Part shown: positions 7,484 through 61,701 of the stretch, piece after piece
Layout of the letters: every line of letters begins with the position of its first letter
Numbering within the stretch: the first letter of the stretch is position 1
NCBI GenBank assembly: GCA_930367215.1
Contig: OV884056.1
Coordinates: 119,409,194-119,473,193, forward strand
Reading direction: 5' to 3'
Length of the DNA stretch: 64,000 nucleotides
DNA from: Pollenia angustigena
Lineage: Eukaryota > Arthropoda > Insecta > Diptera > Polleniidae
Translations under genes and position numbers: made by a program
The notes under the pieces: generated by a model
What the model was told of the DNA's origin: nothing
Databases searched by the model: none
Seen by the model: only the letters and a program-made list of their open reading frames with translations

Positions 7484-8731
7484 AGTGTGTGAAAAAAATG
7501 AAAAAGTTAAAATAGAAAAAAAAAGAAATATAAAGAGAAGGTATTGGGTAAAACCCCTACTGATAATAAGATGCGATCTGGATTTTGAAGCACATTTGCT
7601 GAAAGATTTATTGTGGGAAGATGACGATACCGACTTCAACAATTTTTGCCGCTGGAACATAGTGCAATTTGAAGAAATTTTAAAAATGGTTCGTAAAAAT
7701 GTTTGTATTTTATACCTATTTATGTGTTTATGGTTTTTAACAATGATTAAAAATTGTTTTTAAAACATTTTCATATATAGGTGCAAAACAAAACAACAAA
7801 AAACGACACTCATATGCGTGCTGCGATTTCTGCAAAAACGAAATTGGCAATCACGTTAGGGGTACCTTGCGACGGGAGACTCTTTCAGCTCTCTAAAGTT
7901 TTTAACAAGAGTTTCTAGAAGCACTATTAGTGTATTTATTCCAACTGTGCTGCGCGCAATAAATGATTCGTTAAGAAACATTTGTTTAAAAGTAAGTTTA
8001 TTTTTTGAGCTGCACATGGTAGATAAAAAACAATCTTCTTTTCTTTTGCAGCTTCCAGACAGAGAAGAAGAATGGGAAGAAATCGCCAGGACTTCAACGA
8101 TATATGGCAATTTCCACATACACTGGGGGCGTTAGATGGCAAGCGCATACGCATCAAGGCACCATCTAATACTGGATCCCAGTTTAATAATTTTAAAGGG
8201 TTTTTTAGCATCGTTCTTTTTGCAGCAGTCGACGCACACAGCCGCTTTACATTTGTTGATGTTTATAATGCTTTGGTAAATGGAGATCTAAACGTTCCAA
8301 ACAGCAGGCAACTTGTTTTAAGTCGAGGCAACAATATACCTTATTTTTTCATCGGCGATGATGCATTTCCCCTGGGCAAGCATTCAATGAAGCCATACAG
8401 CAGGTCAAATATATAATTATAGACTGTGCAGAGCCAGAATGGTTGTTGAGTGCGCTTTTGGGAGGTTGGCCAAAAGATTTGCAATATTTAATAGGCCAAT
8501 TGAAGTTCAAACCTCAACTGTAGACCTCATCGTGATGACTGCTTGCACTTTACACTATTACCTAACCAAAAAAAAGGCAAAGCCGACTACACCTGACTTT
8601 CATCCATTGGACATCAAGATATAAAAACGTACAAATATGCCTGCAGGGTAAGGGATGAAGTATCCCGTTATCTGGTAGCGGACGGAAATGTTGATTTTCA
8701 ATGGGAAAAAGTTAACATTAAACAAATTTAA
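7484..8731 (+). pseudogene. HARBI1-like DDE transposase, frameshifted
   Basis: Exon 1 encodes RRYWVKPLLII followed by an F-x-N-F-C-R segment. An intron (7689-7780, GT..AG) follows, then an exon with MRAAISAKTKLAITL. A second intron lies at 7992-8051. The last exon carries the catalytic region: GALDGKRI (first D), FIGDDAF (second D) and VVECAFGRLAKRF (E). I see frameshifts near 7900, 8088 and 8410 and an internal deletion after VDVYN, so no functional protein can be made. Known role: cut-and-paste transposition with TWA target duplications. The C-terminus ends at TAA 8729-8731. Confidence 0.85.
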
Positions 8732-13389: not shown

Positions 13390-13840
13390 ATCTAAACAGT
13401 ATTTTTAAAAATTTGTTGCGTTTTTTTATTTTTCCATAATAATAGTACTAAAAAAAGCGCTAAAATGCAATAATAAAAATGTGAGAACTTTGCCAGTATG
13501 CTCCTCACTTTTGTATGGAAAAAGTAGCTAGAAAGCCGATGCAGCGTAATCAAAATAGATAACCTTCAAACCATTTGCCTATTTTATATATATATATATA
13601 TATAGAACAACTAAAAATCCTAAATTAATATTCAAGTCGACGCTTAAATCCCGTCAAAATACCCATTTTGTTGGTATTTTGGTTTCCCGGTTTTTAAAAT
13701 TCCTATTCCTATTATAAATATTTTAGGCGTTTTTTTATTTTTCAAAAAAAGCACTAAAATTGCCCATATAATAAAAACTTGGCAACACTTACAACATGCA
13801 GCCAACTTTTGTATGAAAAAAGTGCTGTAGGATCCCTTAA
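13390..13840. repeat. Diverged direct repeat pair
   Basis: Two stretches (about 13400-13535 and 13720-13835) share GCGTTTTTTTATTTTTC, GCNCTAAAATNG and CTTTTGTATG-AAAAAGT. They look like two old copies of one short dispersed repeat. A small TA microsatellite lies at 13586-13603. Confidence 0.45.
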
Positions 13841-13844
13841 AACA

Positions 13845-14973
13845 TACTACTACGTTGGGGTCGGTTTTAGATTTATCGCAAGAAGCTGTACCGTGTAGTT
13901 CACCACATACTACGCAGACAGGGGGTAAGTAGCAGTATGCCTTGGTATGGCCAAATTCTTGGCAGTTTAAGCACTGAACAGGTCCATTTTTTTTGTGCGG
14001 CTCTTCTATAGTTATTCTTCTGTAGAGAATATATTTTAAATTGTAAATAGGATGTGTTTCGTTTTTTTTTAAGTTTTACGTCGCCGGGTTCAAACTCCAC
14101 TCGAAAAAGTGGTTGGGGAATTTGTTCTCTATTTTTAATATTTACTACATGTTTTACCTTGAAGCCTTTTTCTTCTAGGAATGTTTTAACCTCTTCTGGG
14201 TCCACACATGAGTCAATACCCTTAATCACTACCTGTAGACTTTTACTGCTTTTCAGTTGGTAGGTATAAAAGTTTTTTTAAGTGTTTCAAAGTTGTTTAC
14301 TATTTTGCGAAAATCATTCTCATGATTGACTTGTATTTTTGTCTCGTTTATACTTCCACGCTCGAAAGCCGCTACGTAAAACGAATTTTCACCTATCACC
14401 GATATCAAACTCTTTATGAGCTCATTTGAATTTTCCTCACTAAGATATATTGGGGGAGGCTTGGATGGTTTAATGACGTTTGGTGCTTCAGAGGATTCAT
14501 CCTCCAGAATTGCAAAACGATTTTGAGTATTTATTTTATCAAAAGATGGTACTTTTGAGGCCGAAGCAACTGCTGCAGAGGTAGGGCTGCGTCCCTGTTT
14601 AAGCACTGTTATGTACCTGTCCTTACCAACTTGTACTGTAGGCTTTTGACAACTTTTTACAGAGGGGTTTTCCATTGCATTTGTGTTTGAGTTCATGGTA
14701 TCATATCCCACTAAATTTGTTTTTGACGTCACGGCAAGACTTGCTGGCCTGGCAACACTTGTCATCAAATCTAGTTGTAGTTTTTTTTAATGAGTCACTA
14801 TCCACTGTTTTTGTAAACACCGAGGGTGATAGGGAACGTGTTCGAGTAATTGGCTTAGCCGTTAAATAGTTTTGTTTTGTTTTATTTATTTCTGCATTAT
14901 TTTCATTTGCATTAACTAAAACGTAAACGTTTCTTTCATTTTGTCTTAGTGTTGTTTCACTGTTCGTTCTCAT
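13845..14973 (-). pseudogene. Jockey-type LINE ORF1 (gag-like), 3'-truncated and frameshifted
   Basis: Reading leftward: an N-terminal linker (14973-14701), then NRFAILEDE, a KPPPIYLSEEN segment, then VVIKGIDS, NIKNREQIPQPLFRVEFEP and two zinc knuckles, CLNCQEFGHTKAYC and CVVCGELHGTASC. This order is the nucleic-acid-binding ORF1 of Jockey-clade non-LTR retrotransposons (PRE/C2HC domain), which packages element RNA. I see frameshifts near 14765, 14260 and 14065. The coding sequence stops abruptly at about 13845 with no ORF2 behind it. Confidence 0.85.
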
Positions 14974-15348
14974 GCAAAGAGTTGTTTTTGTTTTTCACCG
15001 TTTTGCTTTGCTTTTAATATTTTTACTATTTATTGTATTACAACAACACAAAAAATAAGAACTTTAAGCTTAAATGTTTTTGTTCAGAATATGTATACAT
15101 ACATACATGTATGAACATTCATACGTATGTATATATTTTTACTTTTTTATTTTATTTCATTTTATCGTTTTAATTGTTCACTATTATGTTAAATAATTTA
15201 AATAACAAAATATATCATTTATTTTAAGCGTCCATTCGCTGCTGATATATGTCAAAATCAGATATGATTAATTAATAGTTGAAATCGTATGAGGGGTTAA
15301 AAATCCACGTCTGTATCACAACAAAGCACAAACTAATACTGTCAAACT
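14974..15348. other. Presumed 5' flank of the Jockey fragment
   Basis: T-rich sequence upstream of ORF1 on the minus strand with a CATACATACATGTATG-type stretch at 15100-15130. It could be 5' UTR of the retroelement. No TIR or frame seen. Confidence 0.35.
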
Positions 15349-17713
15349 CAATATAAAAAAAAAAAAAATTCGTTCGAAACGCATATTTTATTTATTTAAG
15401 AATTTCTTGCTTATCCTACACAACAAGATATAAATCTTATAGTTAAAGTGCAGGAATTATATAAGTTTAAAACATAAAGGGGTAATCACACTCAAACGAT
15501 TACGTTTGAAAAGAAAGAAAAAAACAAAATAGAGTACATTATAACAAAATGGAAAGGAAATAAACATTTAATTTAAAGAAAGATTAAATTTTAAATTGTA
15601 AGTTGGCTGAGTGTAACATATAAATTATAGATTCAAATAAACTAAACTAAATAAATAAAAAGCTTTGATGGCAAAAATTAATTGGTTTAGTTTTATGGAG
15701 TTTAGCTTATTAAATAATTAACTAATTGATTTCTAAAATTGTTCACATTGTTGTTTGTTTGGACATGATTGGGCAGTAGGTTCCAAAGACGGACAGAATG
15801 AATAAAAAATTGATATTCAGATATCAGGCTGCGGTGTGTAAAGGGAATTATCTTATTTCCCCTGTTAGACCTTGCAAAGGTAAATCTGTTGTACAGATAT
15901 GGAGGATTCTTCGTATATATTATTTTATGTAGCATGTGCAATACCCTCATATCTAAAAGGTTTTTAAATGTCATGCCATAAAGTTTATTTGTGAACTGGG
16001 ATATACTATCGTATTTTCCCAAACCAAAAACATATCTGATTATATTGTTATATGTTTTCTGTAACACATTTTTGCTACGAAAGTCGCAACTTGAGAACAA
16101 CTCGCAACCATATAAAAGTCGAGGCATTAAGTAAGTTTTGGCGATAAGTATTTTAATTTTTAAAGGCGTAAAGTATTGGGTAGGCCAAAGTTCACGTAAC
16201 CGTAGGTAGATGTTTGATGCAGTTTTATTAATATGGTCAGACCAATCTAAATTATTATTGAATATAACACCAAGATTTTTTGCCGAGCGTACACATTAAA
16301 TTTTTTCATTATTAAGCATAATGTCAATGTTTATATTAAAACGGATCGTTTTACGGTGAATGATAAGGCATTTGGATTTGTGGGGATTTATTAGAAGTCT
16401 ATTAGCGGTTGCCCATCTATAAACACTTTCTAAGTCCTTATTTAATTTATGTACGTTGTCTGCAATATTTTCCACAGAACTGCCAATGTAAATTTGTACA
16501 TCATCGGCATATAGTGTAACTTAGAATATGATAAAGTTCGGGGAAGATCATTAACATACAACGAGAACAAAAGTGGTCCCAAAATTGATCCCTGTGGAAC
16601 ACCTTTGGTGACAGGGAGTGCAGACGAGTAACTACCGTTAATAAATACAGATTGGTAACGACTACCAAGATATGATTTAACTAGATTATTTGAGGTCCCT
16701 GATATACCAAATAGCTTTTTAAGTTTGAGGCAAAGCAGAGAATGGTAAATTGCATCGAAAGCTTTGGAGTGATCCAAAAGCACTAGTATATTAACTTTCC
16801 CGATATCTATATCATATCGAATATCCTCACTCAGATTTAATAATGCTGTAACACAGCTATGCTTAGCTCGAAAGCCAGATTGGTGTGGCGTGAGCAAATT
16901 ATGCCGATCAATAAATTCATTTATTTGTGTATACATAAGTTTTTCCATTATTTTGGAAAGATAAGGCAGAATTGCAATAGGCCTAAACTCCGAGTTATTT
17001 TTAGGGACCGGAATAATCTTAGCATGTTTCCAGCTACTTGGAAAGACATTAGTAGTAAATATTGTGTTAAAAATGTGGGTTAAATAAGGTAGTAACCTTG
17101 GCAACAATATTCTTACAAATCGAGGGTCTAAGTTGTCATATCCGATTGCATTTGATTTTACAGACTTTAAGCAAGTTAAGACTTCATCATTATAGACACA
17201 TCGAAAATTAAATTGGATATTTGTTATACTATCTTCTAATGAGTTAATATAGTCATTTGTGTGTGAATCATCATTTGATGAGGGTATTGACGAAAAAATA
17301 ACGTTGTGGTCGTCGGCTGATAAATTGCTGTCAATATTTTTGGTATGATTACCTATTCCAATATCGCGTATAGTTCGCCATGTTGTTTTACTGTCAATAG
17401 CACTTTTAAATCTTTCAGCATAGAAAGTCGTTTTTGTTTTTTTTTATTTCCCGATTGACTTCCATTCTAATTCTACGAAATTCATCGTATAAAATAGGGA
17501 CTTTGAAACGCTTCCAGCGAGAATGCGCAACATCTCTTTTCTTAATTAAATTTTTTATGACTGGATTGAACCAGGGCCTAGTATTATCTTTGACAGTTTT
17601 TGTTTTGATTGGAACAAAGCGTTCATATAAATCAGAAATGTTATTCTCAAGAAAAGTGGTTTGCTGATTTGAAGATATCAATCAATATAAAAAAAAATTC
17701 GTTCGAAACGCAT
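15349..17713 (-). mobile_element. 5'-truncated non-LTR retrotransposon with ~31-36 bp target duplication
   Basis: The same sequence brackets the insertion: CAATAT, an A-run, then TTCGTTCGAAACGCAT, at 15349-15384 (14 A) and 17683-17713 (9 A). On the minus strand the 3' end is a TAAA-type tail (reverse complement of ATTTTATTTATTTAAG). The 5' end stops inside the linker upstream of the reverse transcriptase. A truncated 5' end, simple-repeat tail and long variable duplication are the signature of target-primed reverse transcription. Confidence 0.9.
15702..17681 (-). pseudogene. LINE reverse transcriptase (CR1/Jockey-like), broken
   Basis: Reading leftward: the connector before RT (17681-17415, RPWFNPVIKNLIKKRD), then RT blocks SEFRPIAILPYLSKIMEKL, HQSGFRAKHSC, LLDHSKAFDAIYH and KGVPQGSILGPLLFSLYVND. 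The YADDVQIY active-site motif is present only after a frameshift near 16525 (a 2-base gain or equivalent). A stop interrupts the thumb region near 16298. The tail (16127-15702) ends with RLWNLLPNHV. Endonuclease domain absent. Non-functional. Confidence 0.9.
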
Positions 17714-18998
17714 GGGTGAATCGAGCTTTAAAGACAAACTTTTTCAGTCCGGCGAGAAATGTCCATAATGTAAATTGCGACAAAGAAAAAAACATTTTTT
17801 TTTCTTTAAACACGAATGCCAATATTTAAAATTTGTTATAAATTATAGCCTTTAGTGCAAAAATTCATAGTTTTATGTATGCATATTAATACTGAATAAG
17901 TAAGAAAGATATATTGGGCTGGATTGATCTAAAAATTATTTATAAAGCCTCACAGTTTTATAATTGGTTACAGTTCTACCGTTATGATAAGTTATGGGCC
18001 GACCAGCAGTATGTTTTTCATTTTGATACCAACACCACCATAGTGTCTGTAACACTTAAAAATATTGGTCCTATAACCATTTTATAGTATCCCAATCGAC
18101 TCAATCACTATCTTGAGTCGATATAATGTCTGTCCGGCCGACTGGCTGGCAATTATTTGATAAAATTTGGTACATTGGTACTAAATATTTATTGTTATTG
18201 AAAACAGTGAGGAACGGTCCATAATTTCTCAAAGATACTTACTACTTTTCACATTAGAATCTTTGTGGCAATAAACCATTTTTTTATCTTAGTATTAAGA
18301 TTAAACTTTATATTCTTAATCTATAGTTCCTATACAATTATCACTCACAAAAATATTACCAATACCATAACATCCTTAAAAATTTTAGTATTAATACAAA
18401 ATTTGGCGACTATAACCTTATTTGTTTTATCGGGTCCATGATTGCCCATGAGTCCCAAATTAGGTACAACCTCAAATATTTATCTGTATATTCTGTGGTA
18501 TAGGTTATTATATGGTCGGACTTAACCGACTTATTAATCATATATAACTTAATTTGACCAAATTTGAATAAACTATCATGATTTGTATCAGTTTAGCAGT
18601 ATTAACGGGATTTTTAGGTCGATAATTACAAAATTCGGTTGAGTAATTTTAGTATTAAAAAACATAAACTGGACCAAATTTCAATACAGTTATCAAATTT
18701 TTATAATTTTTATAAAGATGATGCAAGTTTTGCCACTAAAGTCATTAAAAAAAACTGAAAATTGAAATGCTCGAATGGAGCATATGGTAAATTGTTGGCC
18801 GATACTCTCCAAATTTAGTTGTGTGATTTCTAGCTTTATGAAACTATGACATCACAAATTCTGCTATAATAGCGTTATTTGGTACGTCTTAGGCATGCTA
18901 AAGTATATCCGAGAATGGGTTTTACATGCGACCTATGGTAAATTATAGACCGATCATCGTAGTGTAAAATCTTGTCATAGAAAACGAGTTCTTTCGTA
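17714..18998. other. AT-rich DNA with weak mini-me-like repeats
   Basis: Several stretches repeat TATGGTAAATTATNGNCCGA (about 17988, 18783, 18949), and GTCTGTCCGGCCGACTGGCT occurs near 18130. This resembles the interior of an old mini-me/DINE-1 copy. No gene recognised. Confidence 0.4.
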
Positions 18999-19375
18999 AA
19001 TAACAATAACAAGATCGTATTAATAATAAACTTTGTATTCCCGAAAATAACTTTGATAATATAATTGCATGTGCCCGTGCATAAAACTCAATTGGCAAAT
19101 TGGTTTAGTTCGTTGTTTTCTTACGAAGACAATAGAATGAAGCGGTTTGTTTTTTAATTTTGTTTTTTCTTTTAACCCACTTACAACTACAATTCGAGTC
19201 GGAAAGAACCCAACCAATTGTAGGGGGATGTAAGAAAAGATAAACTCACAGTTTATTGTTGGTGTTTTGTTTAAGCTTTGATATTGTTACAGGTAAGACT
19301 TAGAGTGTTTATAACTCTTATTCGCTTAAGGTTTTATTTGTTTAATATTTTTGGCTTTTCTAAAATCTTTTGAAA

Positions 19376-19427
19376 AGGTTTCCTGATGAGCTGGTGTAAG
19401 CAACCGGCGAAATGCGCATAGAGGCTT
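19376..19427 (+). ncRNA. Hammerhead ribozyme, unit 1
   Basis: Core CTGATGA at 19383-19389 and GAAA at 19409-19412. Stem II is GCTGGT/ACCGGC (19390-19395 with 19403-19408, one G-U), loop of 7. Stem III is 2 bp (AT with AT) closed by GCGC. The cleavage triplet is ATA with the predicted cut after A19420. Stem I is AGGTTTC (19376-19382) with GAGGCTT (19421-19427), 7 bp including wobbles. All invariant core positions are present. The tiny stem III is typical of retroelement hammerheads, which may act best as dimers. Confidence 0.88.
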
Positions 19428-19862
19428 GCTTTCCCTCAACAATAAATTTCAGTGTATTTTTCAAATATGAAAAACTGGGAATTTAGCACGTCATACGAAG
19501 ATCGTATTAATAATAAACTTTGTATTCCCGAAAATAACTTTGATAATATAATTGCATGTGCCCGTGCATAAAACTGAATTGGCAAATTGGTTTAGTTCGT
19601 TGTTTTCTTACGAAGACAATAGAATGAAGCGGTTTGTTTTTTAATTTTGTTTTTTCTTTTAACCCACTTACGACTACAATTCGAGTCGGAAAGAACCCAA
19701 CCAATTGTAGGGGGATGTAAGAAAAGATAAACTCACTGTTTATTGTTGGTGTTTTGTTTAAGCTTTGATATTGTTACAGGTAAGACTTAGAGTGTTTATA
19801 ACTCTTATTCGCTTAAGGTTTTATTTGTTTAATATTTTTGGCTTTTCTAAAATCTTTGGAAA

Positions 19863-19914
19863 AGGTTTCCTGATGAGCTGGTGTAAGCAACCGGCGAAAT
19901 GCGCATAGAGGCTT
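19863..19914 (+). ncRNA. Hammerhead ribozyme, unit 2
   Basis: Core CTGATGA at 19870-19876, exactly 487 bp after unit 1. Stems and loops are identical across the motif. The only nearby change (TTTTGAAAAGG to TTTGGAAAAGG) lies just outside stem I. Predicted cleavage after 19907, so cutting units 1 and 2 would release a 487-nt RNA (19421-19907). Confidence 0.88.
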
Positions 19915-20349
19915 GCTTTCCCTCAACAATAAATTTCAGTGTATTTATCAAATATGAAAAACTGGGAATTAAGCACGTCATACGAAGATCGTATTAATAA
20001 TAAACTTTGTATTCCCGAAAATAACTTTGATAATATAATTGCATGTGCCCGTGCATAAAACTGAATTGGCAAATTGGTTTAGTTCGTTGTTTTCTTACGA
20101 AGACAATAGAATGAAGCGGTTTGTTTTTTAATTTTGTTTTTTCTTTTAACCCACTTACAACTACAATTCGAATCGGAAAGAACCCAACCAATTGTAGGGG
20201 GATGTAAGAAAAGATAAACTCACTGTTTATTGTTGGTGTTTTGTTTAAGCTTTGATATTGTTACAGGTAAGACTTAGAGTGTTTATAACTCTTATTCGCT
20301 TAAGGTTTTATTTGTTTAATATTTTTGGCTTTTCTAAAATCTTTGGAAA

Positions 20350-20401
20350 AGGTTTCCTGATGAGCTGGTGTAAGCAACCGGCGAAATGCGCATAGAGGCT
20401 T
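20350..20401 (+). ncRNA. Hammerhead ribozyme, unit 3
   Basis: Core CTGATGA at 20357-20363 with the same stems. Predicted cleavage after 20394. Together with unit 2 this defines a second 487-nt monomer (19908-20394). Confidence 0.88.
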
Positions 20402-20491
20402 GCTTTCCCTCAACAATAAATTTCAGTGTATTTATCAAATATGAAAAACTGGGAATTTAGCACGTCATACGAAGATCGTATTAATAACAAT

Positions 20492-21147
20492 CGGTTCAGT
20501 TTGTCACCAATTCTTGTTAATTTCTTTAATAGAAATAGACATTTTTCAGGGTGGAGGGGTTCTGGTTTAAATGGAGAAAATTAACTCAGCTGAGCGAAGC
20601 CGGTGCTTGATATACCATAAAATTAAGAACCCTTATGTCCAATCGAAAACCAACATAAAAGAAAAATTTTATTTAGCAAAGCCGGAATTTGGCATACTAT
20701 AATTAAATAATACATAGAGTATATATTATTACCACATGTATACTCATAACTCTATATTAATTTTTTGTAATATAATTTTTTAACTTTAATAACTGAAAGC
20801 TTGAAGCGTTCCCTATAAAATATTATATGTAAAAAATACCTTTATATCGATAACATTTTGAGATAAGAGCCATTTTGATAAAATGCATTAGTAAATTAAA
20901 CTATTTTTTTTAATTGGTTCTTAATGGGTTAATAATTCGGCATGTTTTATATACCATGTGAAAGGTATTTGGAAACACCCTTTAGCGATACCCATATTGC
21001 TGTGATCCAATTTATACTTCAAGAAATATTGGTTAAGAATTGATCAACTTTTATGGGCTATAACTCTAAAACAAAGTTCTTTGGCAAACATTTCTATTTT
21101 CAAAGCACTTATACATAAATGCAATTTTTTGTTCCTTGTTTGCCGAT
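20492..21147. other. Repeat debris, no gene
   Basis: At 20594-20700 are weak matches to the GCGAAGCCGG..TATACCATA motif of the hairpin tandem repeat at 28.9 and 61.1 kb. The rest is AT-rich and unassigned. The stretch ends at TTGCCGAT, the target of the hAT insertion. Confidence 0.4.
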
Positions 21148-21508: not shown

Positions 21509-22709
21509 TTGCAATATTTATGTATATATGTGTTATATGAATCAAAATTCTATTCGATAATTTTTAACGAAAGCACGGATTTGTCGGGGAAAAGCCAGAT
21601 TTCCTTATCTTTAAGATATTTCAACATACAACAAAAAGTTTTTAGGGAAGAATTTATTGGCTTTGAAGAGGCTTCAAAAGATATTGATGACGTTGATGTG
21701 TCAATTGATGCGAAGGCACTATGATCAATAGTTGTTAAAGGTTTGACAAATTGTGGTCTTGACCTAAAAAATTGTGTAGGAGATGCAACAGATGGGTGTC
21801 CTCTGATGTCAGCAGAAAATAGAGCTGTTCAAAAATTCTGGAAAAGCGACAAATGCGAAACAAACGCATTGCTATTCCCATAAATCGAACAACTCAATTT
21901 CATTAATACAAAAAGTTGTATCACTTGTTAAAGAAACGACAAAATTTTTGAAATATAATCATCCCAAGCGAAAACAAAAATATCTGAGTGGAAAGGGAGT
22001 ATCTCAACCTTAATATTAAGGAACTCTTTTAGTACTTTTGAATTTATTTGCGAAATATACATATTAAGTGTGATACTTATTGTAACACAGCCACTTAATA
22101 TCATTTTACAACAGCAAGATATAGATCTTCAAAACGGATCAAGCCTTATCAAAATTTAAATCATGTGCCTTGAAGAAAAAAGAAATAAAGCCGAACTTAT
22201 TTGCGTTCAAATCGAGGTTCCAATCGAAAAGACAATATTGACAATGTTGAAGATTACTACCGAGTTGTAGTTACATTAATCTTAGTGAATTTATTTTAGA
22301 AGATCTCAAAACACTTTTCCCAATAGATATCCTAAATGTATTGAACATACCTAAACTTCTACCTCAAAGTGTAATCAAGTCATGTACTTATACAAAACTT
22401 TTAAAACCACAACTAGCGGATGATCTGATTATATTTGATAAACGCGATAAACACCTACTAACATCTAAACTTGAGCCTGATCTATCAGATAACGTTGTAG
22501 ATGCTTTAATGAACTGTGATGAAGATATCTACCCATATCTAAGAAAAATATTTAAAATTTTCATTTCAATGCTCGTCAGTAAAGCTACGAGCGGGAGGTC
22601 ATTTCCTACCGTTCGTCGAATTAAAACATGGCTCAGATCAACAATGACAGAAGATAGACTGTACTGTCTATATTTGCCTCACAAGGAAATCATAAATTGC
22701 TTATTTTAA
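21509..22709 (+). pseudogene. hAT transposase remnant (DUF4371 / hATC type)
   Basis: The first frame (21509-21724) includes FYSIIFNESTDLSGKSQISL and LRYFNIQQKV..EFIGF, the DDE-core region seen in ZMYM1-like hAT transposases. A decayed continuation follows (NCGLDLKNCVGDATDGC near 21750). The last frame (22341-22709) ends with SFPTVRRIKTWLRSTM and EDRL, the hAT C-terminal dimerisation region. Several stops and shifts lie between. The N-terminal zinc-finger part is missing. Confidence 0.85.
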
Positions 22710-28448: not shown

Positions 28449-29502
28449 AAGGCAAAAGTGCACTTTACGGGGCGTACGAAAAAAAAAAAAAAAAATTGGA
28501 CCCCCTCTGGAATAAAAAAATAAAAAAAATCAAAATTAAAATTTAAGGGGGCTGAGGCCCCTGGGACCCCATGGATCAAAAAAAGCGGCCCGCCCACTTA
28601 GTGGTATGTGTGGGTACTCAAATTAAAGGTAATTGTGTAAAAAATACGAAATTAATAAAATTTAGGTCGAGCGGGACTTCTGGGTCCCTCTGGGGGGTAA
28701 AATATAGCCCCTCGCACCCTTATAACTATCTGTGGGTACTCGAATGAAAGGTATTTTGCTTACGATTGTATTGTTTAAGGGAATAGCTACGTAGACAAAC
28801 AATTTGTTATAAAAATCGCGGGATTTTTTTTATATTTTTGTAATTAAAGCTGTTTTGTATAGCCGGCCTTCGGCCGGGCGCAAAGATTTTTTCCTCTCTG
28901 GTATAACAAAGACCGGCTTCGCTAACTAAAGCTTTTCTGTATAGCCGGCCTTCGGCCGGGCGCAAGGATTTTCTCCTCTATGGTATAACAAAGACCGGCT
29001 TCGCTAACTAAAGCTTTTCTGTATAGCCGGCCTTCGGCCGGGCGCAAGGATTTTCTCCTCTATTGTATAACAAAGACCGGCTTCGCTAACTAAAACTTCT
29101 CTGAATATAAAAGATACATAAATTAACCTAGAGAGGAAAATATTAAACGAATACAAAAACAAAATACATATTTGCAATCGTGAGCAAATTACCTTTAATT
29201 TGAGTACCCACACAGATATACATAAGTGTTATGGGGGGGCACTTTTTTTGCCCCAGAGGGCCCTAGAAGAGCCGCCGACCGAAAATTTTATTATTTTTGT
29301 TTTTGTTGCACAATTACCTTTAATTTGAGTACCCACACATACCATTTAGTGGGCGGGGCGGTTTTTTGGACCCAGGGGTCCCCACGGGCCTCAGCCCCCT
29401 TAAATATTAATTTTGGTATTTTTTTTTTTTAATTCTGGATCGGGTGGCATATTTTTTATATTTTTTTTTCGTACGCCCCGTAAAGTGCACTTCAGCCAAA
29501 AA
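28449..29502. mobile_element. Long-TIR element with GC-rich internal tandem repeats
   Basis: Ends share GTGCACTTTACGGGGCGTAC followed by an A-run. The arms stay inverted-repeat for about 200 bp, including GGTACTCAAATTAAAGGTAA and the GGGGGCTGAGGCCCCTGGGA region. It interrupts the Harbinger derivative. A relative lies at 60813-61330. The GC-rich arms stand out sharply against the AT-rich surroundings. Confidence 0.75.
28855..29100. repeat. 82-bp tandem repeat with GC hairpin, three copies
   Basis: AGCCGGCCTTCGGCCGGGCG starts at 28861, 28943 and 29025 (period 82). CCGGCC TTC GGCCGG is a perfect 6-bp hairpin, and GACCGGCTTCGCTAACTAAA follows in each unit. The same repeat occurs inverted at about 61050-61310. 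Confidence 0.9.
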
Positions 29503-39884: not shown

Positions 39885-41170
39885 TTTTTTATACCCTCCA
39901 CCACAATTAGTTGTGAAGAGGGTATATTAAGTTTGTCATTCCGTGTGAAACTTTTTTATTATTCATCTCAGACCCCATAAAGTATATATATTCTGGGTCC
40001 TTGAGTAATTCTAAGTCGATTTAGCCATGTCCGTCTGTCTGTCCGTCTGTCCGTCTGTCCGTCGGTCCGTCTGTCCGTCTGTTGAAAACACGCTCACTTT
40101 CGAACAACTCAAAAGAAATGAACAAACTTGGTGCCAAACTGCTTGTAGTTATCCTAAGCAGTTTGGGATTGAAATCCAGCAAAATCGGTTCAGTAGGACC
40201 AGAGCTATGAATCAAAATGTGGAACCACCACCTAAAAAAATTGATAATTTTGTTACAAAAAATAACATAAATGCTGGAACAAGGCACGGAATGAGATAAG
40301 ATTTTGCAAAAATTTGTTTTAGTTGACTGGAAATCACGCTGTTAAATTTCGTGATGATCCCGCCATAATTTACCCTAAGCCCCATATAAACAATACTCCC
40401 GGAAAACAGTTTAGTACGCCTAAAATCGTAAAAAATAACGCTAGCGTAACAAAATTTGGTACGTCACAGTTTTATAGAACTACAAATGACACTGTGAAAT
40501 TTCGTGAAGATCGGTACATAATTTACCCTAGGCCCCATAGAAACCCTACTCCCGGAAAACAGTTAAGTCCGCCTAAAACCGTAAAAAATAATGCAATCAT
40601 AACAAATTTTGGCTCGTCACAGTTTTGTAGGACTACAAATGATACTGGGAAATTTCGTGAAGAACGGTACATAATTTACCCTAGGGCCCATAGAAACCCT
40701 ACTCCCGGAAAACAGTTTAGTACGCCTAAAACCGTAAAAAATAATGCAATTATAACAAATTTTGGCTCGTCACAGTTTTGTACGACTGCAAATGATACTG
40801 GGAAATTTCGTGAAGATCGGTACATAATTTACCCTAGGGCCCATAGAAACCCTACTCCCGGAAAACATTTTAGTACACCTAACACCATAATTAGTTATGC
40901 TAGCATAACAGAAATTGGTACGTCACAGTTTTAAAGGACTAGAAATGACGCTGTGAAATTTCGTGATGATCGGTCCATAATTTACCCTAGGCCCCATACA
41001 AACCCTACTACCGGAAAACAGTTTAGTCGCCTAAAACCATAACTAATAACAAATCGTCACAGTTTAAGATAATAATAATATCATACAGATATTACTCCTT
41101 AAACATTCGAACTGTCGGTGGAGGGTATCAAAGATTCGGCACAGCCGAATATAGCACTCTAACTTGTTTT
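39885..41170 (+). mobile_element. Mini-me/DINE-1-type element (non-autonomous Helentron-like)
   Basis: Starts TTTTTTATACCCTCCACCAC..GAGGGTATATTAAG. The core AGTATATATATTCTGGGTCC is followed by a GTCC/GTCT microsatellite (40028-40081). The 3' part ends GATTCGGCACAGCCGAATAT (7-bp stem, 3-nt loop) and CACTCTAACTTGTTTTT. These parts, in this order, describe dipteran mini-me/DINE-1 elements. The interior holds a 153-bp minisatellite. Non-coding. Confidence 0.8.
40344..41085 (+). repeat. 153-bp minisatellite, about 4.8 copies
   Basis: AAATTTCGTGAWGATC recurs at 40344, 40497, 40650, 40803 and 40956, a constant 153-bp step. Because 153 is divisible by three, a 203-codon frame (40323-40934) stays open with a 51-residue repeat (RYIIYPRAHRNPTPGK). 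It lies wholly inside a non-coding transposable element, so I treat it as a repeat rather than a gene. Confidence 0.9.
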
Positions 41171-49062: not shown

Positions 49063-50431
49063 TTATTTATTGATTAAAAAGTTTGCAATAGCGTTTCTAA
49101 TTTCTTCACATTTTGGGTTGTAATCGTAAGCGAAATGTTCACTATTCGGCTGTCTCCTAATTGTTTCACCATTGCTTTGCCAGACCTCATTAAATACTTC
49201 ATTATTGTTATTTAAAAAGTTGTGAAGGACGCAGCAACATTTGATTATATCATTAACATTGTTAATTTTATTGTCTATCCCTTTTCCAAGTCGTCGAAAA
49301 CGTGCTTTTAAATGGCCGAACGCGTTTTCAACAACTCAACGGGATTTTGACAAAGTATAATTAAATGTTTTCTGTTTTTCTGATGCATTTACATGAAATG
49401 GATAAGGTTTCATCATGCATTCAGATAAACGAAAAGCCGAGTCGCCTATTAATAAAACCGGAATTTTCACACCATCGTAAAAAATAGCTTGCTGTTGAAA
49501 TGTTGGATCTTGCATTTCTTTTCTTAACATAGATTTCTCAAATATGGTCGAATCATTGCATCGTCCCGGACATCCGACATTAATATACAAGAAACGATAT
49601 CTGTAGTCAACAACAGCGAGTAAGACAACTGAGTACCACCCTTTGTAATTGAAATAATCACAAGTTTCCGAAGAAGAGGGGTGAACCTCAAAATGGCATC
49701 CATCTACATACATATATAGCAATTTAAATAAATAACGCAAAAATCAAATATTAAGTCTCGTTTTGAATTCTAAATTTACAAAATAATCATACCTATTGCT
49801 CCAAAACATTGTGGAAACCCAATTTTTTTAAAACCGTCGACACATTCCTTTATTTTTGTTTCGTTTATACAATTGGATGGTAAGTGTTCCTCTGAAAGAT
49901 TTTTCCAGACCTCTTTACAAAATTCTTTTAATATGAGGCATACACTTGATTTCGATACTCCAAACATGTGTGCTATTGACGCATACTCAGATGAAGACTT
50001 GAGACAATAAAGGCCAATACTAATACGTTTTTGTAGTGGGATACATTTTCTAAAGTTTGTATCACTTTTGTTCATTGATGTAAGCTTTAAGCATAACAAT
50101 TGAAAAGTGCATCGGCTCATTCTAAAATTTTCAATGAACATTTCATCTGACATTTTAGGAACATCTTCCTCCCAAAAGGAACCATAACGAGTCTAATAAA
50201 ATTGTGTGTATTAATAAAGAAAACACCTAGATATAATTGTCTATATGTACTTACATGTACCCATTCCATTCTACTATTTAACAATTGTGAGTGGTAATAC
50301 ATTTGCATTGTTTTTTGAAATTGTATATTTAAAAGATGCTGACGCTTCTTTTTACGCAACAACATTATTGCAGATTGGATTTTTTTCGCTCTGGACGAAC
50401 AAAATACTAATAAATGTCCTTTATCTTCCAT
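49063..50431 (-). pseudogene. Harbinger (HARBI1-like) DDE transposase with one in-frame stop
   Basis: Three exons on the minus strand, 50431-50255, 50192-49793 and 49703-49063, have GT..AG borders and sum to 1218 nt (405 codons plus stop). The helix-turn-helix region has YASIAHMFGVSKSSVCLILK. The catalytic residues are the D of GAIDG (split by intron 2), the D of LLIGDSAF and the E of VVENAFG. The reading frame is intact throughout except for TGA at 49338-49336, immediately before VVENAFG, where relatives usually have arginine; CGA to TGA is a single transition. Unless the stop is read through, the product lacks the catalytic E. Confidence 0.9.
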
Positions 50432-51151: not shown

Positions 51152-51613
51152 TTAAGTAATGTAATCTCTAAACCAATTCGGCTCCCGTCTGTTGCGATGC
51201 GATCGACGATGTGCTTGGTCAGGATGTTCAGGAAGAACTATTTCCTGATTGTTGACTTTTTCAGTTTGTTGTGGCACATATGCAGGCATATCTTGTGTAA
51301 TTGCTGTTGAAGGACGTTGCTGAAAAGTTGTAGCTGGTGAAGCAGAATTACGATCAGGGACAATTCTATTTTCTTGAATGGGTGTAAGTGCACTATTCGT
51401 GCTTGGTGTATTTTTATAAGGTGGACTGAGATCAAAACTATCTAACCATGAATTAGTACTTGTTGAATTGCTGTGACGTAATCGCAGTTGGTTTGCGTGA
51501 GCCTTCATGGATTTAAAATATGGAAAGGTAACAATCTCTTCTTCATACTTGACATTTCCAATACGCTTCTTAATAATTCCAGGTGCCCAAAAGTACTTAT
51601 TGAGTTTGTACAC
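51152..51613 (-). pseudogene. Integrase C-terminal region of the gypsy element
   Basis: The frame has YKLNKYFWAPGIIKKRIGNV and a long S/T/P-rich tail ending HRRSHRNRREPNWFRDYIT. It matches the C-terminal end of gypsy Pol, after the catalytic core. Together with 51614-51856 (SELFLGRKVRINMDLL in another frame) it continues the integrase interrupted by the insertion at 51857. Confidence 0.7.
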
Positions 51614-51856
51614 CTTTGCATAGACTTCACTTCCAACACTAAATTGGCGATTTTTAGCATTGTATTTACGATTACATATATTGCAATGCCATTTTGTTAT
51701 TATAATGGCCAGCGGCTTGTTTTGGTTTTAGAAGTAAATCCATGTTGATTCTTACCTTCCTCCCCAAAAAAAGTTCAGATGGTGATTTGTTTCCAGATGC
51801 ACTGTCGTTGTACTAACAATAGACATGTAGAAAATCACGAATACCATTAATTAAAT

Positions 51857-52757
51857 CTATATATAAATCGGCTAAGGCAAAACAGTTAAGAACACTTTCC
51901 TCCTCTGTATGTCAACCGATTTAAACAAAATATACACCATTTGAAAGGTATTTACGCAAAGAAGTGCACAATGTATATTTTATTAAAATCTGTTCAATAA
52001 TTTCAGAGTTATAAGCGTTCAAAATTGCTACTAACACAGATGCAAAATAAATAAATCAAAATTTATTTTCAATTATCAAATAATAAAAAATTAGGGTGAT
52101 CGATTATTCGATATTTTTCAGAAACCGGTTTTCGGTATTTCGACTTATGTATAAATCGGACCAGGCAAAACAGTTAAGAAAACTTTCTTCCTTTGTTTGT
52201 GCAATTTTTTAAATTTTCTATAATATTGAACTTAGAAACATAATATTATAGGTGTAGGGTCCTGAGTGAGTGATCACTTATGAAATAAAAAAATGCTGGT
52301 ATTTTTGTTCTTCATCTGGAACTGTTTGAATTTTCGTTAATATTCGACCTATAAAGATAAAATTATATATTAAACTGGGTGCATAAGAACATGTAAGGGG
52401 AGATTTTTGGTACTTTTTCGTTCAATAGCTGGTACTTTGATTAATTTTCGATAATATTAGACATAGAAACATAAAATCAAACGGGCAACGTCCTGAGTGG
52501 ATGACAATATATAAAGGAGACTTTTTGATACTGTTTTGTTTTTTAATTGGTATTTTTTATACCGAACTTACAAAATTAAATTAACTCACGTAGAAGATAA
52601 AATATGAACCGGAGGTTGGTCCCTCGCGAAATCGATCCACTCTGAAGGAAATAATAAATGCTCGAAAAATAAATTCATATATACTTAGATGATGATGTTT
52701 TCTTCATATTTCCAAAAAAATTTATGGTCGAATTTTGACCATTAGGCAAACACTAGT
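51857..52757. mobile_element. ~0.9-kb insertion in the integrase, Helitron-like or other
   Basis: TTAATTAAAT occurs at 51847-51856 and 52758-52767, a 10-bp direct repeat. The insert's right end has ATGGTC..GACCAT (6-bp stem) followed 10 nt later by CTAG, and its left end begins with or next to TC TATATATAA. This resembles Helitron ends, but a 10-bp duplication would not. The interior has repeated ATAAATCGG..GGCAAAACAGTTAAGAA motifs (51862 and 52144). Non-coding. Confidence 0.55.
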
Positions 52758-52769
52758 TTAATTAAATTC

Positions 52770-53339
52770 GTTTCCTAAGCGTGCGCTTAAAAGTGTCCAC
52801 AAAACGTTCTACTTGCCCATTGGATTGTGGGTGGAATGGTAAGTGTTCACGTTCCACGTTCCCTGCAGAAATCAAAAAACTCTTGTGAGGTAAATTGTGT
52901 TCCACTGTCACTCACCAATGTTTCCGGCCATCCAAAATGTGAGAAAAACTCGTTAAGACAATCGATCACTGCTGCTGACGTCATCGATTTTAATAGGTAA
53001 ACTTCTGGCCATTTGGAAAATTAAACCACCAATAAGTACGTTTTCTGTTCCAACTGGACCTGCCAGATCAATATGTATACGTTGCATTGGCCTAAGTGAA
53101 GTAGGCCAGGGATGAAGATTTTCTCTAGATGGAGCCTTAGCTGTGGAGGCACAAGATGTACATTGCCGTACTAACATTTCCACATCTTTGTCTATGTTTG
53201 GCCAATAGACATAGCTCCGAGCAAGAGCTTTGGTACGAACTATACCTTGGTGACCTTTATGTAACTGCTTAAGTACACGTTGACGTAGACTATTTGGAAT
53301 CACAATTCTATGTTGATAGAGAAGACAATCATCGGCCAT
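52770..53339 (-). pseudogene. Integrase zinc-binding and catalytic core
   Basis: 53339-52953 encodes the HHCC domain (LHKGHQGIVRTKALA..CTSCASTAKAP) and the first catalytic D (MQRIHIDLAGP). After a frameshift near 53020 the core continues with LVSDSGTQFTS (second D), then a further shift to NGQVERF (E). All three catalytic residues can be seen, but across three frames. Confidence 0.8.
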
Positions 53340-54436
53340 AAAGCATTTTGTGACATTTCTTTACTGCAAATACGAGTGCCAAACCTTCTTTTGTCAATTT
53401 GTGAGTAGTTGCGCTCTGCTGGCGTCAATGACCGCGCATCGCGGTATACAGCTTTCTTAGAACCATCAGACAATTCATGGCAAATGTAAGCACCAATTCC
53501 TACTTTGGAGGCATCTGCAGCCACCTTAATTGGAAGACTTGGATTATAGTGAGTAAGCATGAGGTCAGACGACAAAATCTCCTTAAACTGTTGAAACGCT
53601 TCCTCACAAGGCTTAGCCCATTCCCATTTAGAATCACGTTTTAAAAGAGCGTCAAATGGTGCTCTTAACTGTCGCATTTTGCGTATAAATTTTCCGTAGT
53701 AGTTCACTGCACCCAGAAATGACCGCAGCTTTGTGATATTTGTTGGGGCTGGCATTTTTACAATGGTCGAAATTTTACCTGGATCAGGTTTGATGCCGGA
53801 ACCATCGACTTTATATCCCAAGTAGGTGCAGCTACGAGAAAAAAAACTACATTTATCAAAATTTACCGTAAGATTATACCTTTCAAAACGCGAAAACACT
53901 TCATTAACGGTTTTTTTGTTTTGTTCCATTGACGGCGTTGCTATGATGACGTCATCAAGATGCGGATATGCATGTTGAACACCAGACAGAATTGTATCAA
54001 TTGCCTGTTGAAAAGCGTCTGGCGCTGATTTGACCCCAGGTGCAAGCCGGTTGAATGTTAAAAGACCTCTATGTGTATTTATGGTGAGCATTTCTATTGT
54101 AGAATCGTCAACTTCAATTTGCATGTATGCGTCATTTAAATCTATTCTTGTGAAGATTTTGCAGTTGTTGAAGTTAACAAAAATATCATCAGGCAACGGA
54201 AGTGGGTAGGTGTGCGTTTCCATACATTGATTTAATCTGGTAGAATAATCCCCGCATAAGCGAACTTTTCCATTAGCCCTTTTAACAACAACGATATGTG
54301 CAGCCCATCTGGAGTAATTTACAGGTGTAATGATATAAGCCCGTTTTAGGTGCTGAAGTTCATCGTCTACTTGTTGTACTGCCGCATAAGAAACCGGTCT
54401 TTTTGGTTTAAATACTGGCTTAGCATCAGCCTTCAC
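53300..54436 (-). pseudogene. Reverse transcriptase and RNase H of the gypsy element
   Basis: A 378-codon open frame covers RT and the start of RNase H. RT: PVSYAAVQQVDDELQ, GKVRLCGDYSTRLN, FTRIDLNDAYMQIEVDD, FNRLAPGVKSAPDAFQQAID and HLDDVIIATP. The expected Y before LDD is replaced by H, at a position usually tyrosine. RNase H begins KVAADASKVGIGAYI. The frame shifts at about 53395, and the rest of RNase H and the linker to integrase appear deleted. It is the longest open frame in the window. Confidence 0.9.
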
Positions 54437-54900
54437 TTTGAAAGTAGAGCAATAACTGGCAAAAACTTTCGGAAATTTATTCTTGATTTTCTGAACTTCC
54501 GAAACACTGATGTTGTTGCAAATTCATTCGATTGGATAGCTCCAAATACCAAGTTGGTCCATTACGTCAGCACCCATAATATTAAAATGGTTGTGGCGTG
54601 TCACGAAAAGTGTTGCTGTTATTAGCTTTTCTTTGAACCTTACCGCTGCTTTACACTGACCAATTAGATCGAGAACATTACCTGATGCGTCTCTTGGTGT
54701 TTGTGATGGTGGAGTGAGGTTAGGTTCTTTATTTTTGACCACATAATTTTTGATATTATTGTGATGTCTGCGCCTGTGTCAAACTGCAAACGCTGTTTTA
54801 CGCCATTGATTACAACATTGATATGTTTTCTGTTTGCAGCGACGCTGTTAACGTCATGTAGAATCGTTTTGAACTTTTTGTTATTTTTTTTATATTTCTT
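54437..54900 (-). pseudogene. Aspartic protease region of the gypsy element
   Basis: LQFDTGADITIIS (about 54785) carries the D-T-G active site of retroviral-type proteases. A frameshift follows, then QTPRDASGNVLDLIGQC and FNIMGADVMDQLG (54742-54524), the second half of the protease fold. A stop after WSYPIE separates it from the RT frame. Confidence 0.75.
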
Positions 54901-55017
54901 GTCGTTTTGTTGTTAAGAGAAACTTGAACAATAACCCTCTTTGTGGCCGACCACTTCACATTGTTCACACAAGTACTTAGTGTATGTGCAATTTTTAACG
55001 AAGTGCATCGCGCCACA

Positions 55018-55856
55018 CTACCAACAAGGCCTTTTCGATTTTTCGCTTGTTCTTTGTTTTTCATTTGTATTGTATTTTTCTCTTAATTTGCCCTTGCGCT
55101 CTTTAGATTTTACAGCATGTACTTTTTGATCAACAACGGCGGCATCTCTCTTTAAATTTAACACCCTATGCACTTCGGTTACCATTTTGTCAATTGTGTA
55201 TGCTCCCTCTTTGTCTCCCTCTAAAAAGTTCAAAAGGCACGCTCTGCTGTCGGCGTCTTCTGCGCTTTGCAAGCCACGAAGAAACATTAGACACTTAAAA
55301 TGGTTTTCCTTTAGTTTGCTAAACTCAAAATTATCGCAATTGCGATTAACCATAGCACCATAAGTAACAAAGTCGACACCATCACTTTTAGTAAATTGTA
55401 AGCAATTCATACGTGCGCTAAACAGGGACTCTTTTCTTCCAAAGATAGTTTTTAATGTAGCAACTGTTTCCCCGAAATTCAGATCGCGAGGCACCTTAGG
55501 CAAAATGTAGTCGGCATACTTGCCGAAAACATCCGGTTCTAATTTTCGCAAAACTAACCTCATTTTTCAGCATCAGGCAATTTATCGGCATCTTCGCCAA
55601 AAAGATGTTCATAACGAGAGAACCAAGTCTCAAAAGTTTGGTTAGAATCAGCATTGTAGGCAAAATCCTTTATGTTTTTGGACAACATACCCATAACGGT
55701 ATCAGAACTTGTTGACGGAGCATCCAATGGCACTGAACCACTTCTAGACATTGCTACTAAATGTTCCATTAGCCTTTGCTGTTGCTCCATTTGAATTTGC
55801 TGCCACTGCAGCGTTTCATGTTGACTAGCAAGAATTTGAGTTAGCGTCTGATCCAT
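55018..55856 (-). pseudogene. Gag of the gypsy element, frameshifted
   Basis: The first frame (55856-55560) has a Q-rich coiled-coil start and FETWFSRYEHLFGEDADKL. A one-base shift at an A-run (about 55560) leads to the second frame (55563-55018) with RLVLRKLEPDVFGKYADYIL and a basic C-terminus. The zinc knuckle follows with a stop inside it (CW, stop, CGAMHFVKNC). Role: virus-like particle formation in LTR retrotransposons. Confidence 0.85.
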
Positions 55857-60667: not shown

Positions 60668-61701
60668 CCGACACAGCACCAAATAAAAAAAAAATGTACC
60701 TAGGGTCATAGAAAATTGAAAAATAAGAAGAAAAAATTTAATAAAAAAGTTGGCGGAAACGCTTAGTTTTCGAGTTACGGACGTTTTTAGCTTTCATATA
60801 AATATGTGATTTGGCTGAAGTGCAGCTTTAAGGGCTACGAAAAAAAGAAAAAAACCAAATTAAAATTTAAGGGGGCTTAGGCCAGTCGGGCCTCCTGGAA
60901 CAAAAAAACTGCCCCTCCCACTTAGTGATATTTATGGGTACTCAAATTAAAGGTAATTTACTCACGATTGCAAATATGTATTTTGTTTTTGTATTCGCAT
61001 AATATTTTCCTCTTTAGGTTTATTTAAGTAATTTTTAGGTGCAGAAAAGTTAGGCCGGCTATGTAGAGAAACTTTTGTTGGCGAAGCCGGTATTTGTTAT
61101 ACCATAGAGAAGAAAATCCTTGCGCCCGGCCAAAGGCCGGTTATGCAGAGAAGCTTTAGCTTGCGAAGCCAGTATTTGTTATACCATAGAGGAGAAAATC
61201 CTTGCGCCCGGCCGAAGGCCGGCTATGCTTAGAAGCTTTAGTCAGCGAAGCCGGTGTTTGTTATACAATAGAGGAGAAAATCCTTGCGCCTGGCCGAAGG
61301 CCGGCTATGCAGGGGTGTCTTCGTTTGCGACGCACATGTTTATAATTTGATTACGTTTGTATTACACTTTTATTTAAGTAAACAACGTACTTACCTGGTG
61401 CACTTCTGTAATATTTTGATGTAAAATGTAAAAAAAAATTGTAATGTGAGGTAAAGAGATAAAAATTTTCAAATAAATTTTGTATATCTAAAAAGATATG
61501 GTCAAAAGCTTTGAAATGAATCCAATATTGGCCATATAACGATAAAAATGTATTGGAAAATCGGACCTTTATATAAAAACTTAAAATGTCCATAACTTGA
61601 AAACTAAGCGTTTCCGCCGACTTTTTTATCTAATTTTTTCTTCTTATTTTTCAATTTTCTATCACCCTAGGTACATTTTTTTTTATTTGGTGCTGTGTCG
61701 G
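60668..61701. mobile_element. 1034-bp element with ~130-bp TIRs
   Basis: CCGACACAGCACCAAATAAA and its mirrored right end begin arms that run through TGTACCTAGGGTNATAGAAA and GGCGGAAACGCTTAGTTTTC. It interrupts copy B; copy A shows that about 15 bp of target are missing. It carries a copy of the hairpin tandem-repeat element. Confidence 0.8.
60813..61330 (-). mobile_element. Relative of the 28449-29502 element, with hairpin tandem repeats
   Basis: Left end TTGGCTGAAGTGCAGCTTTA..GGGCTACGAAAAAA and GGTACTCAAATTAAAGGTAA match the 28.4-kb element. From about 61050 the ~82-bp unit (GGAGAAAATCCTTGCGCC, GGCCGAAGGCCGGCTATGC) recurs three to four times, inverted relative to 28.9 kb. A 76-codon frame here is a by-product of the repeats. 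No right TIR found. Confidence 0.7.

Follow-up and report, generated by a model that had tools for sequence, protein, structure and literature searches.

A tandem array of hammerhead-bearing units

Within a 64,000-nucleotide (nt) stretch of the genome of the fly Pollenia angustigena (contig OV884056.1, positions 119,409,194–119,473,193; hereafter the window) lies a short tandem array of a 487-bp unit that carries a hammerhead ribozyme motif and that we call retrozyme A. Tandem Repeats Finder (TRF) reports the repeat at 19011–20487, with a period of 487, 3.0 copies and 99% matches, and self-comparison resolves three head-to-tail units just where the original prediction, made from the letters of the window, had placed them. 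The units differ at 7 sites, all of them singletons among the three and thus uninformative about unit order, and have a GC content of 0.33. A scan for stop-to-stop open reading frames of at least 120 amino acids (aa), which shorter frames fell outside, found none within the array. Penelope queries gave no tblastn match in the window, and ARAGORN found no tRNA genes, in an analysis with no search aimed at a long terminal repeat (LTR), primer-binding site (PBS) or polypurine tract (PPT). An RNA polymerase III promoter was considered and rejected: stretches resembling an A box and a B box can be picked out by eye at a distance of about 98 bp, with T-runs between them and no tRNA found by ARAGORN. 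Positions within the unit are given below as q coordinates, where q1 is window position 19499 or the equivalent base of another unit and the ribozyme cut falls at q409/q410. The features of the array, all on the + strand, are as follows.

19012–20487: retrozyme A array, three 487-bp units and about 15 nt of a fourth (TRF period 487, self-comparison, 7 variable sites)
19012–19498: unit 1 (self-comparison)
19499–19985: unit 2, which served as the query (self-comparison)
19986–20472: unit 3 (self-comparison)
19371–19434: hammerhead ribozyme 1, core CTGATGA at 19383–19389, predicted cut 19420/19421 (descriptor, structure)
19858–19921: hammerhead ribozyme 2, predicted cut 19907/19908; stem I 19858–19869 with 19908–19921, core 19870–19876, stem II 19877–19882 with 19890–19895 (descriptor, structure)
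19899–19906: stem III of ribozyme 2, AUGCGCAU
20345–20408: hammerhead ribozyme 3, core 20357–20363, predicted cut 20394/20395 (descriptor, structure)
20473–20487: 3′ terminus of the array, which is site 1 (about +93 relative to the cut), where the hairpin ATACGA-AGA-TCGTAT precedes the motif ATTAATAA (27/64 genome copies end at q10–28)
19544–19554: site 2 as it lies inside unit 2, with motif TTTGATAATA, at q46–56 or about +124 to +134 relative to the cut (34/64 copies end at q39–56)
18999–19007: 9-bp repeat AATAACAAT on the left flank, a putative target-site duplication (sequence, flank test)
20483–20491: right copy of AATAACAAT, overlapping the last AATAA of the array (sequence, flank test)

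All three units contain a type I hammerhead, in which stem I is the open stem. Each reads CTGATGA, stem II GCTGGT/ACCGGC with loop GTAAGCA, GAAA, the palindrome ATGCGCAT and A, and the stem I strands are GGAAAAGGTTTC and GAGGCTTGCTTTCC, with U-G wobbles among their pairs. The core, stems and cut sites claimed for every unit are therefore present in 3/3; ‘complete’ is too strong a word, as stem III has only 2 bp, closing a palindromic GCGC tetraloop, and unit 1 lacks the outermost stem I pair (T instead of G at 19371). The short palindromic stem III may leave the monomer weak and make a dimeric form more likely. A descriptor requiring CTGATGA, stem II of at least 4 bp, GAAA, an A-U-closed stem III, H17 and stem I of at least 4 bp matched the window only at core starts 19383, 19870 and 20357. 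Its chance rate is 0.015 matches per 64-kb sequence on both strands (200 order-1 Markov sequences), and the three matches count as one event, not three.

The covariance-model match that the original prediction looked for did not materialize. Rfam at its gathering cut-offs gave no match in the window, and the Rfam hammerhead models gave none at E ≤ 10 over 18900–20600; an 81-nt input matched only Hammerhead_3, at a sub-threshold 11.7 bits (E 4.5, cut-off 48.5). At E ≤ 3 the same models also miss the two other groups of hammerheads described below, family B and those of Penelope-like elements (five loci given, with no known hammerhead as a positive control). Because they miss other short-stem-III hammerheads of this genome, the negative result is uninformative.

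Retrozyme A is a dispersed family

We searched the window's own assembly (1.37 Gb, 31 contigs). Using the unit as query returned 2,122 candidates, the best 40 of which, when scored, comprised 137 matches at 40 places on contigs C1–C4. The ribozyme pattern CTGATGAGN{8,22}CGAAATGCGCATA has 729 + 756 = 1,485 exact matches, against 0 + 0 for a reversed control; an exact ribozyme search of viral contigs gave 0 matches in two scans. The 40 mapped arrays are 90.8–99.5% identical to the window unit, with one below 95%, and as the best-scoring copies they are also the youngest; such near-identity suggests recent activity. In the mapped arrays the units adjoin each other, with no coding part or LTR between them.

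Loss of the motif from other genomic copies had been named as grounds for giving up the hammerhead; the motif is conserved. Across 215 aligned stretches, 0.46% of cells in the CTGATGA core differ from the majority, versus 1.5% for the whole unit, and the values for stem II (2.4%) and for the stem I 3′ strand (3.9%) are higher than that of the unit; these figures are no test of selection, as part of the sample was picked by the core pattern itself. Among 16 of 35 variants, three hammerhead pairs show U-G to U-A changes. Stem II also occurs as a variant, TCTGG/CCAGT, whose first pair is U-U.

Two fixed 3′ ends and scattered 5′ ends

Both ends were mapped for 64 copies, comprising 40 arrays (one per scored place) and 24 copies from 30 ribozyme-core loci, after five overlapping views were dropped and L064 and L065 were joined as one array; L052 and L053 entered the count separately, although they form the arms of a single inverted locus. 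The 3′ ends fall at q10–28 in 27/64 copies, at q39–56 in 34/64 and elsewhere in 3/64, so that 61/64 use one of two sites (39/40 arrays and 22/24 core-sampled copies). A stricter end walk, which left 5 of the 61 unplaced, put the peaks at q14–19 and q45–53, approximately 31 nt apart and 92–97 and 123–131 nt downstream of the ribozyme cut (~95 and ~126). The clustering is strong (Rayleigh R 0.904), and both sites carry a T-[A/G]-ATAATA motif. The window copy stops at site 1; site 2 is not its 3′ end. By contrast, 5′ ends are spread round the unit, with no significant bias to one side (n = 63, Rayleigh R 0.21, p ~0.06). Copy lengths range from 0.38 to 6.6 units without favoring whole numbers; 8/24 core-sampled copies reach at least one unit, with a median of 0.73 units among the 23 uninterrupted ones. 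Counts of 24-mers (1,217 near the 3′ end versus 962 at q57–80) run in the direction that 5′ truncation predicts, and as they represent only two points we give them no weight.

Within 5 nt of the ribozyme cut we find no 3′ ends and one 5′ end. A linear cleaved monomer would leave its junction there, and because the ends do not coincide with the cut, the copied RNA was therefore circular or multimeric. One way to meet this constraint with neither circles nor self-cleavage would be an uncut, multimeric read-through transcript of an existing array, and long linear multimers would indeed yield the same pattern of ends. Arrays extend to 6.6 units, however, though many copies are short, and a circle accounts for them without a long donor; moreover, related animal retrozymes do form circles, as described in PMC7229834. 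We therefore regard the uncut transcript as an improbable template.

The sequences flanking the copies are shared above chance. Among 56 pairs, 16 share at least 7 bp (chance ~9%), and the mean of 4.98 was reached by none of 1,000 shuffles (shuffled mean 3.66); this test predates the joining of L064 and L065 and leaves out the inverted loci and the copies, then four, with other 3′ ends. The 9-bp duplication of AATAACAAT proposed for the window copy is present, and the flank rule picks out the same sequence; 160 of 20,000 random flank pairs share a 9-mer. Together with the 1,485 dispersed pattern matches, the shared flanks uphold the suggestion that the array is a mobile unit. They also bear on the possibility of a plain satellite, grown by unequal crossing-over and carrying its hammerhead incidentally. 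A tandem, homogeneous and non-coding repeat is what such a satellite would look like, but neither the number of ribozyme matches nor short arrays at 40 scored places across four contigs would be expected, and the insertion pattern, with its two fixed 3′ ends and flanking repeats, in effect refutes it.

In four loci an inverted unit piece adjoins the 5′ side of a copy; no such piece adjoins a 3′ side. At L064/L065 (G000 C1:17114911–17115889), an insert of about 450 bp interrupts a single retrozyme A array; the ends of the insert (GGCTGGGTTTTTGAGATCT... / ...CACATCTCAAAAACCCGGC) look inverted, a few bases are repeated, and it is probably a small DNA transposon. Two retrozyme A insertions that differ in length and in 3′ class, L008 and L018, each sit in a copy of one other repeat and occupy the identical AACAATAATACTTTTC motif there, which suggests a target preference for AATAAT.

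Penelope-like elements of the same genome

The original prediction had drawn a parallel with Penelope-like elements, and the same genome contains such elements with minimal hammerheads of their own. A search for the GIY-YIG domain gave at least 19 matches above the cut-off (best 150 of 493 candidates scored). At one locus (L083), RVT_1 and GIY-YIG occupy a single open stretch; at another (L082), the end of one element is followed by the start of the next. A minimal hammerhead lies 3′ of the coding part in 8/9 GIY-YIG loci inspected (L075–L083), a count that omits L074, in which L077 is the locus without the motif and L078 and L079 are near-identical. The motif is CCC-CTGAAGA-N-GTCAA..TTGAC-GAAA-CGT-T-GGG or a near form, which we read as a probable hammerhead with no stem III loop, A in place of U7 and one extra base before stem II; U7 of the hammerhead may vary, according to PMC2837043. 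In L083, stem II is GTGAA/TTCAC, a change on both sides of the helix (C-G to G-C).

These elements also end at set distances past the cut. L076 and L080 end at CTTATATATAAT, 79 nt past it, and L081 a few bases earlier. With a tandem Penelope query of 237 nt, 23 of 40 scored places (from 755 candidates) span the whole length, and the remaining 17/17 stop at q195–204 of that query, which is 115–124 nt past the cut. Most of the run-through places (21 of 23) belong to a cluster on contig C14 (G000 C14:523362–592743), where 21 near-identical Penelope-like 3′ regions in both orientations lie within 70 kb of a small contig. The end regions of two Penelope families are not clearly alike (148/1000 shuffles score as well), and those of two others are (2/1000).

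The arrangement in L076 deserves separate description. On its minus strand, a family B hammerhead (core CTGAGGA) at 2297, a Penelope hammerhead 245 bases on at 2542 and a diverged retrozyme A fragment at 2742 follow one another. The fragment, about 80% identical, starts exactly at the Penelope +79 end, by nesting or template switch. It also gives some color to the idea that the unit is no separate retrozyme but a piece of a pseudo-LTR belonging to an autonomous Penelope family, as pseudo-LTRs bear hammerheads and form tandems and here a relative of the unit directly follows a Penelope 3′ end. This idea is very hard to sustain, as the units of the mapped arrays adjoin without a coding part, and Penelope coding remains occur in only 3/73 loci fetched around the unit (L043 and L059/L060, the last two being one locus), with none in the window.

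Tails of this type are known from elsewhere. A lizard Penelope begins to reverse-transcribe its RNA at two neighboring sites within it, and the interval between them corresponds to the long-known optional 30–40-bp tail of genomic copies (PMC11167929). Its start lies mostly 111–118 into the open reading frame, with the hammerhead cut at 26, which by our own subtraction from the figures in PMC11167929 places the start 85–92 nt past the cut. The same enzyme prefers AT-rich DNA targets (PMC11167929). Rotifer Penelopes have a 31-bp optional tail, inverted pseudo-LTRs, 5′-truncated partial tandems and target-site duplications of 8–10 bp (PMC3846280). In what these two sources describe, Penelope elements with a tail thus resemble retrozyme A in having two 3′ ends 30–40 nt apart at a set distance past a hammerhead cut, as well as 5′ truncation, tandem copies, AT-rich targets and short target-site duplications. 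The two 3′ ends of retrozyme A, 31 nt apart, match this tail, and the proposed parallel holds to that extent. Unlike Penelope, retrozyme A encodes no reverse transcriptase or endonuclease, and its hammerhead has the full CTGATGA core and a 2-bp stem III, whereas those of the genome's Penelope elements have CTGAAGA and no stem III loop.

The ends could instead be the work of a long interspersed nuclear element (LINE), whose target-primed machinery recognizes 3′ ends and would treat the two sites as two ATAATA-type priming motifs. The T-[A/G]-ATAATA motif common to both sites would suit such an enzyme, random 5′ truncation and target duplications are known for LINEs, and LINE remains lie about 1.6 kb from the array in the window (RVT_1 in 16442–17443, − strand). 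An optional tail of ~31 nt at a set distance past a hammerhead cut is nevertheless a Penelope trait (PMC11167929, PMC3846280), and the genome's own Penelope elements resemble the tail pattern of the retrozyme. Read by eye, the LINE next to the array lacks such a tail in its 3′ region, in a search that covered that LINE and no other LINE families, and we discarded this neighbor as the donor. LINE-driven movement thus seems to us unlikely.

A second hammerhead family and other features of the window

The second hammerhead family, B (L084–L088 and L091–L093; for example L087, L092 and L093), has CTGATGAGATCGAGTGGTTGCGATCGAAACATGTC and a GTC cleavage site, and forms tandems at ~561–567 bp, followed by a B-box-like GGGTTCGAGCCCC. 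A wider pattern for it gave 38 + 41 matches versus 4 + 4 in the control, not all of them from this family. In 22 distinct sequences, pair 4 of stem II is C-G in 12, T-A in 4 and A-T in 3, with T-G, A-A and C-T once each. Judged by this covariation, the predicted hammerhead of family B is better supported than that of retrozyme A. Unlike those of retrozyme A, copies of family B apparently have the 5′ start in common, and not the 3′ end.

The window contains further repeats. A 183-bp satellite of 11.7 copies occupies 61811–63994 and reaches the window end. Arrays of an 82-bp repeat at 28841–29107 and 61052–61312 belong to one family in opposite orientation, with GCCGGCTTCGC motifs, and a short piece of this family lies at 20593–20619, about 100 bases past the retrozyme array. 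A 153-bp repeat of 4.7 copies at 40331–41049 has one frame open for 203 aa. The window is also rich in transposons, with LINE-type reverse transcriptase remains and a PRE_C2HC domain at 13644–17443, DDE_Tnp_4 transposases at 8027–8416 and 49336–49743 (one just under the cut-off), a hAT dimerization domain at 22251–22709 and a Gypsy-type polyprotein at 51152–55566. Among the 120 of 405 matches listed for the Gypsy-type frame, Lucilia cuprina supplies the relative of highest identity (87%, covering 53% of the query), and most of those named are from mosquitoes and other flies, with some worms.

Discussion

Taken together, these results lead us to read the array as one insertion of a non-autonomous, non-LTR retrozyme of 487 nt, moved by Penelope machinery from circular or multimeric RNA, an interpretation to which we assign a probability of roughly 0.7. 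A dispersed family with flanking repeats above chance fits the non-LTR retrozymes described by Cervera & de la Pena (2020; PMC7229834), and the parallel with animal retrozymes drawn from the window alone was well chosen. For an element that has no coding capacity, the two ends, the tandem and truncated copies and the short flanking repeats are most simply explained by a Penelope protein as the copier of the RNA.

A mechanism can be outlined from these sequence features. First, transcripts of an array would self-cleave into 487-nt monomers, probably as hammerhead dimers, a form we think likelier because stem III is a short palindrome. Second, a host ligase would close the monomers into circles. 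Third, a Penelope-type reverse transcriptase/GIY-YIG endonuclease would nick AT-rich DNA and begin reverse transcription at either of two positions within the RNA, which lie about 95 and 126 nt 3′ of the cut. Finally, the enzyme would follow the circle, or the length of an uncut multimer, and drop off at a point that varies from copy to copy. The resulting arrays would be fixed at the 3′ end but variable at the 5′ end, and their unit number would be fractional. That a Penelope-like protein makes more than one circuit of a small self-cleaved circular RNA, from either of two internal start sites whose position depends on the distance from the hammerhead, is a more specific proposition, to which we would give even odds.

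Several observations weigh against movement by Penelope machinery, against the circular template or against the hammerheads themselves. Fixed 3′ ends with 5′ truncation occur with LINEs too. Three copies end outside the two sites (L024 at q202, L051 at q108 and L054 at q261), and in L051 and L054 older, diverged unit pieces alongside blur the 3′ end. The 5′ ends avoid q48–138, where 1/63 falls (L063, q70) and ~12 would be expected if they were even, a gap that we cannot explain. Inverted arms are alike in identity in only two loci, L004 (98.6/99.4%) and L052/L053 (89.1/93.7%); in L006 (99.2/87.3%) and L071 (99.2/80.4%) the inverted piece is older. The 64-nt hammerhead fold is as stable as its shuffles (z −0.24; 367/1000 equally stable), and the circular fold has z −3.45 on the + strand and −1.05 on the − strand, values that we dropped as evidence of extra circular-RNA stability because 7/30 random control windows reach z ≤ −3. 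Among the 16 of 35 variants, the retrozyme A hammerhead shows no double compensatory change, and covariation is not above shuffles. On the Penelope side, L078/L079 have two of the five stem II pairs broken, two loci support the +79 end, and long matches are favored among the 40 scored places, so that +79 copies, which would score lower, may be missing there. Similarity between the end regions of retrozyme A and Penelope is at chance (896, 692 and 922 of 1,000 shuffles score as well). With no shared end sequence, recognition would have to be structural or by spacing, or to involve a Penelope family outside our sample. In addition, hammerhead mutants of lizard Penelope insert normally in vitro (PMC11167929). 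The ribozyme may serve to make circles or to free monomers from arrays, or may have no role, and insertion may not need it.

As far as our searches reach, retrozyme A is a new family of an already known kind, the animal non-LTR retrozyme. It shares with those described in PMC7229834 a tandem organization with units of some hundreds of bp, low GC content and dispersal, a type I hammerhead with a short stem III, the lack of a long open reading frame, target-site duplications over 4 bp and the presence of Penelope-like elements in the same genome. At 487 nt it exceeds the 150–450-bp repeats and ~170–400-nt RNAs reported there, and no such unit sequence, 3′-end map or Penelope tail is given in the available text of PMC7229834. 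The amphibian HHR_Amex1/2 (PMC7229834) likewise have a stem III of 1–2 bp with a tetraloop, palindromic in Amex1, and share with retrozyme A the stem II variant with a U-U first pair; unlike it, they are vertebrate elements with units of 330–350 bp. The pDo500 repeat of Dolichopoda (PMC2837043) is an insect repeat of ~500 bp with a hammerhead in each unit, for which a double-hammerhead form is discussed; it is treated there as satellite DNA, and we liken it to retrozyme A by description, not by sequence. Plant LTR retrozymes (PMC4918200, PMC7229834) are also non-autonomous hammerhead retroelements, of which circular RNA is a feature. They differ in having type III hammerheads within LTRs, a PBS and PPT, 4-bp target-site duplications and circles of 600–800 nt.

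In the literature listings consulted, which are not exhaustive, we found no account of retrozymes in flies and none with such an end map. The novelty of the kind is low, and the mechanistic clue is the interesting part. In the text of PMC7229834, the mover of animal retrozymes is left open, and Penelope-like elements are a strong candidate by co-occurrence. The end map provides more specific and testable ground, in the form of a Penelope tail signature at a like distance from the retrozyme hammerhead, and it also speaks against the linear ribozyme product as the RNA that was copied. If a Penelope-like protein does go round the RNA circle as proposed, the end map of the retrozyme would be a record of circle-templated insertion by a Penelope enzyme, and the cut-to-start spacing of ~80–95 and ~119–126 nt in both retrozyme and Penelope would be a recognition architecture kept without sequence similarity. 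The signs of recent activity suggest that a fly could be a living test system.

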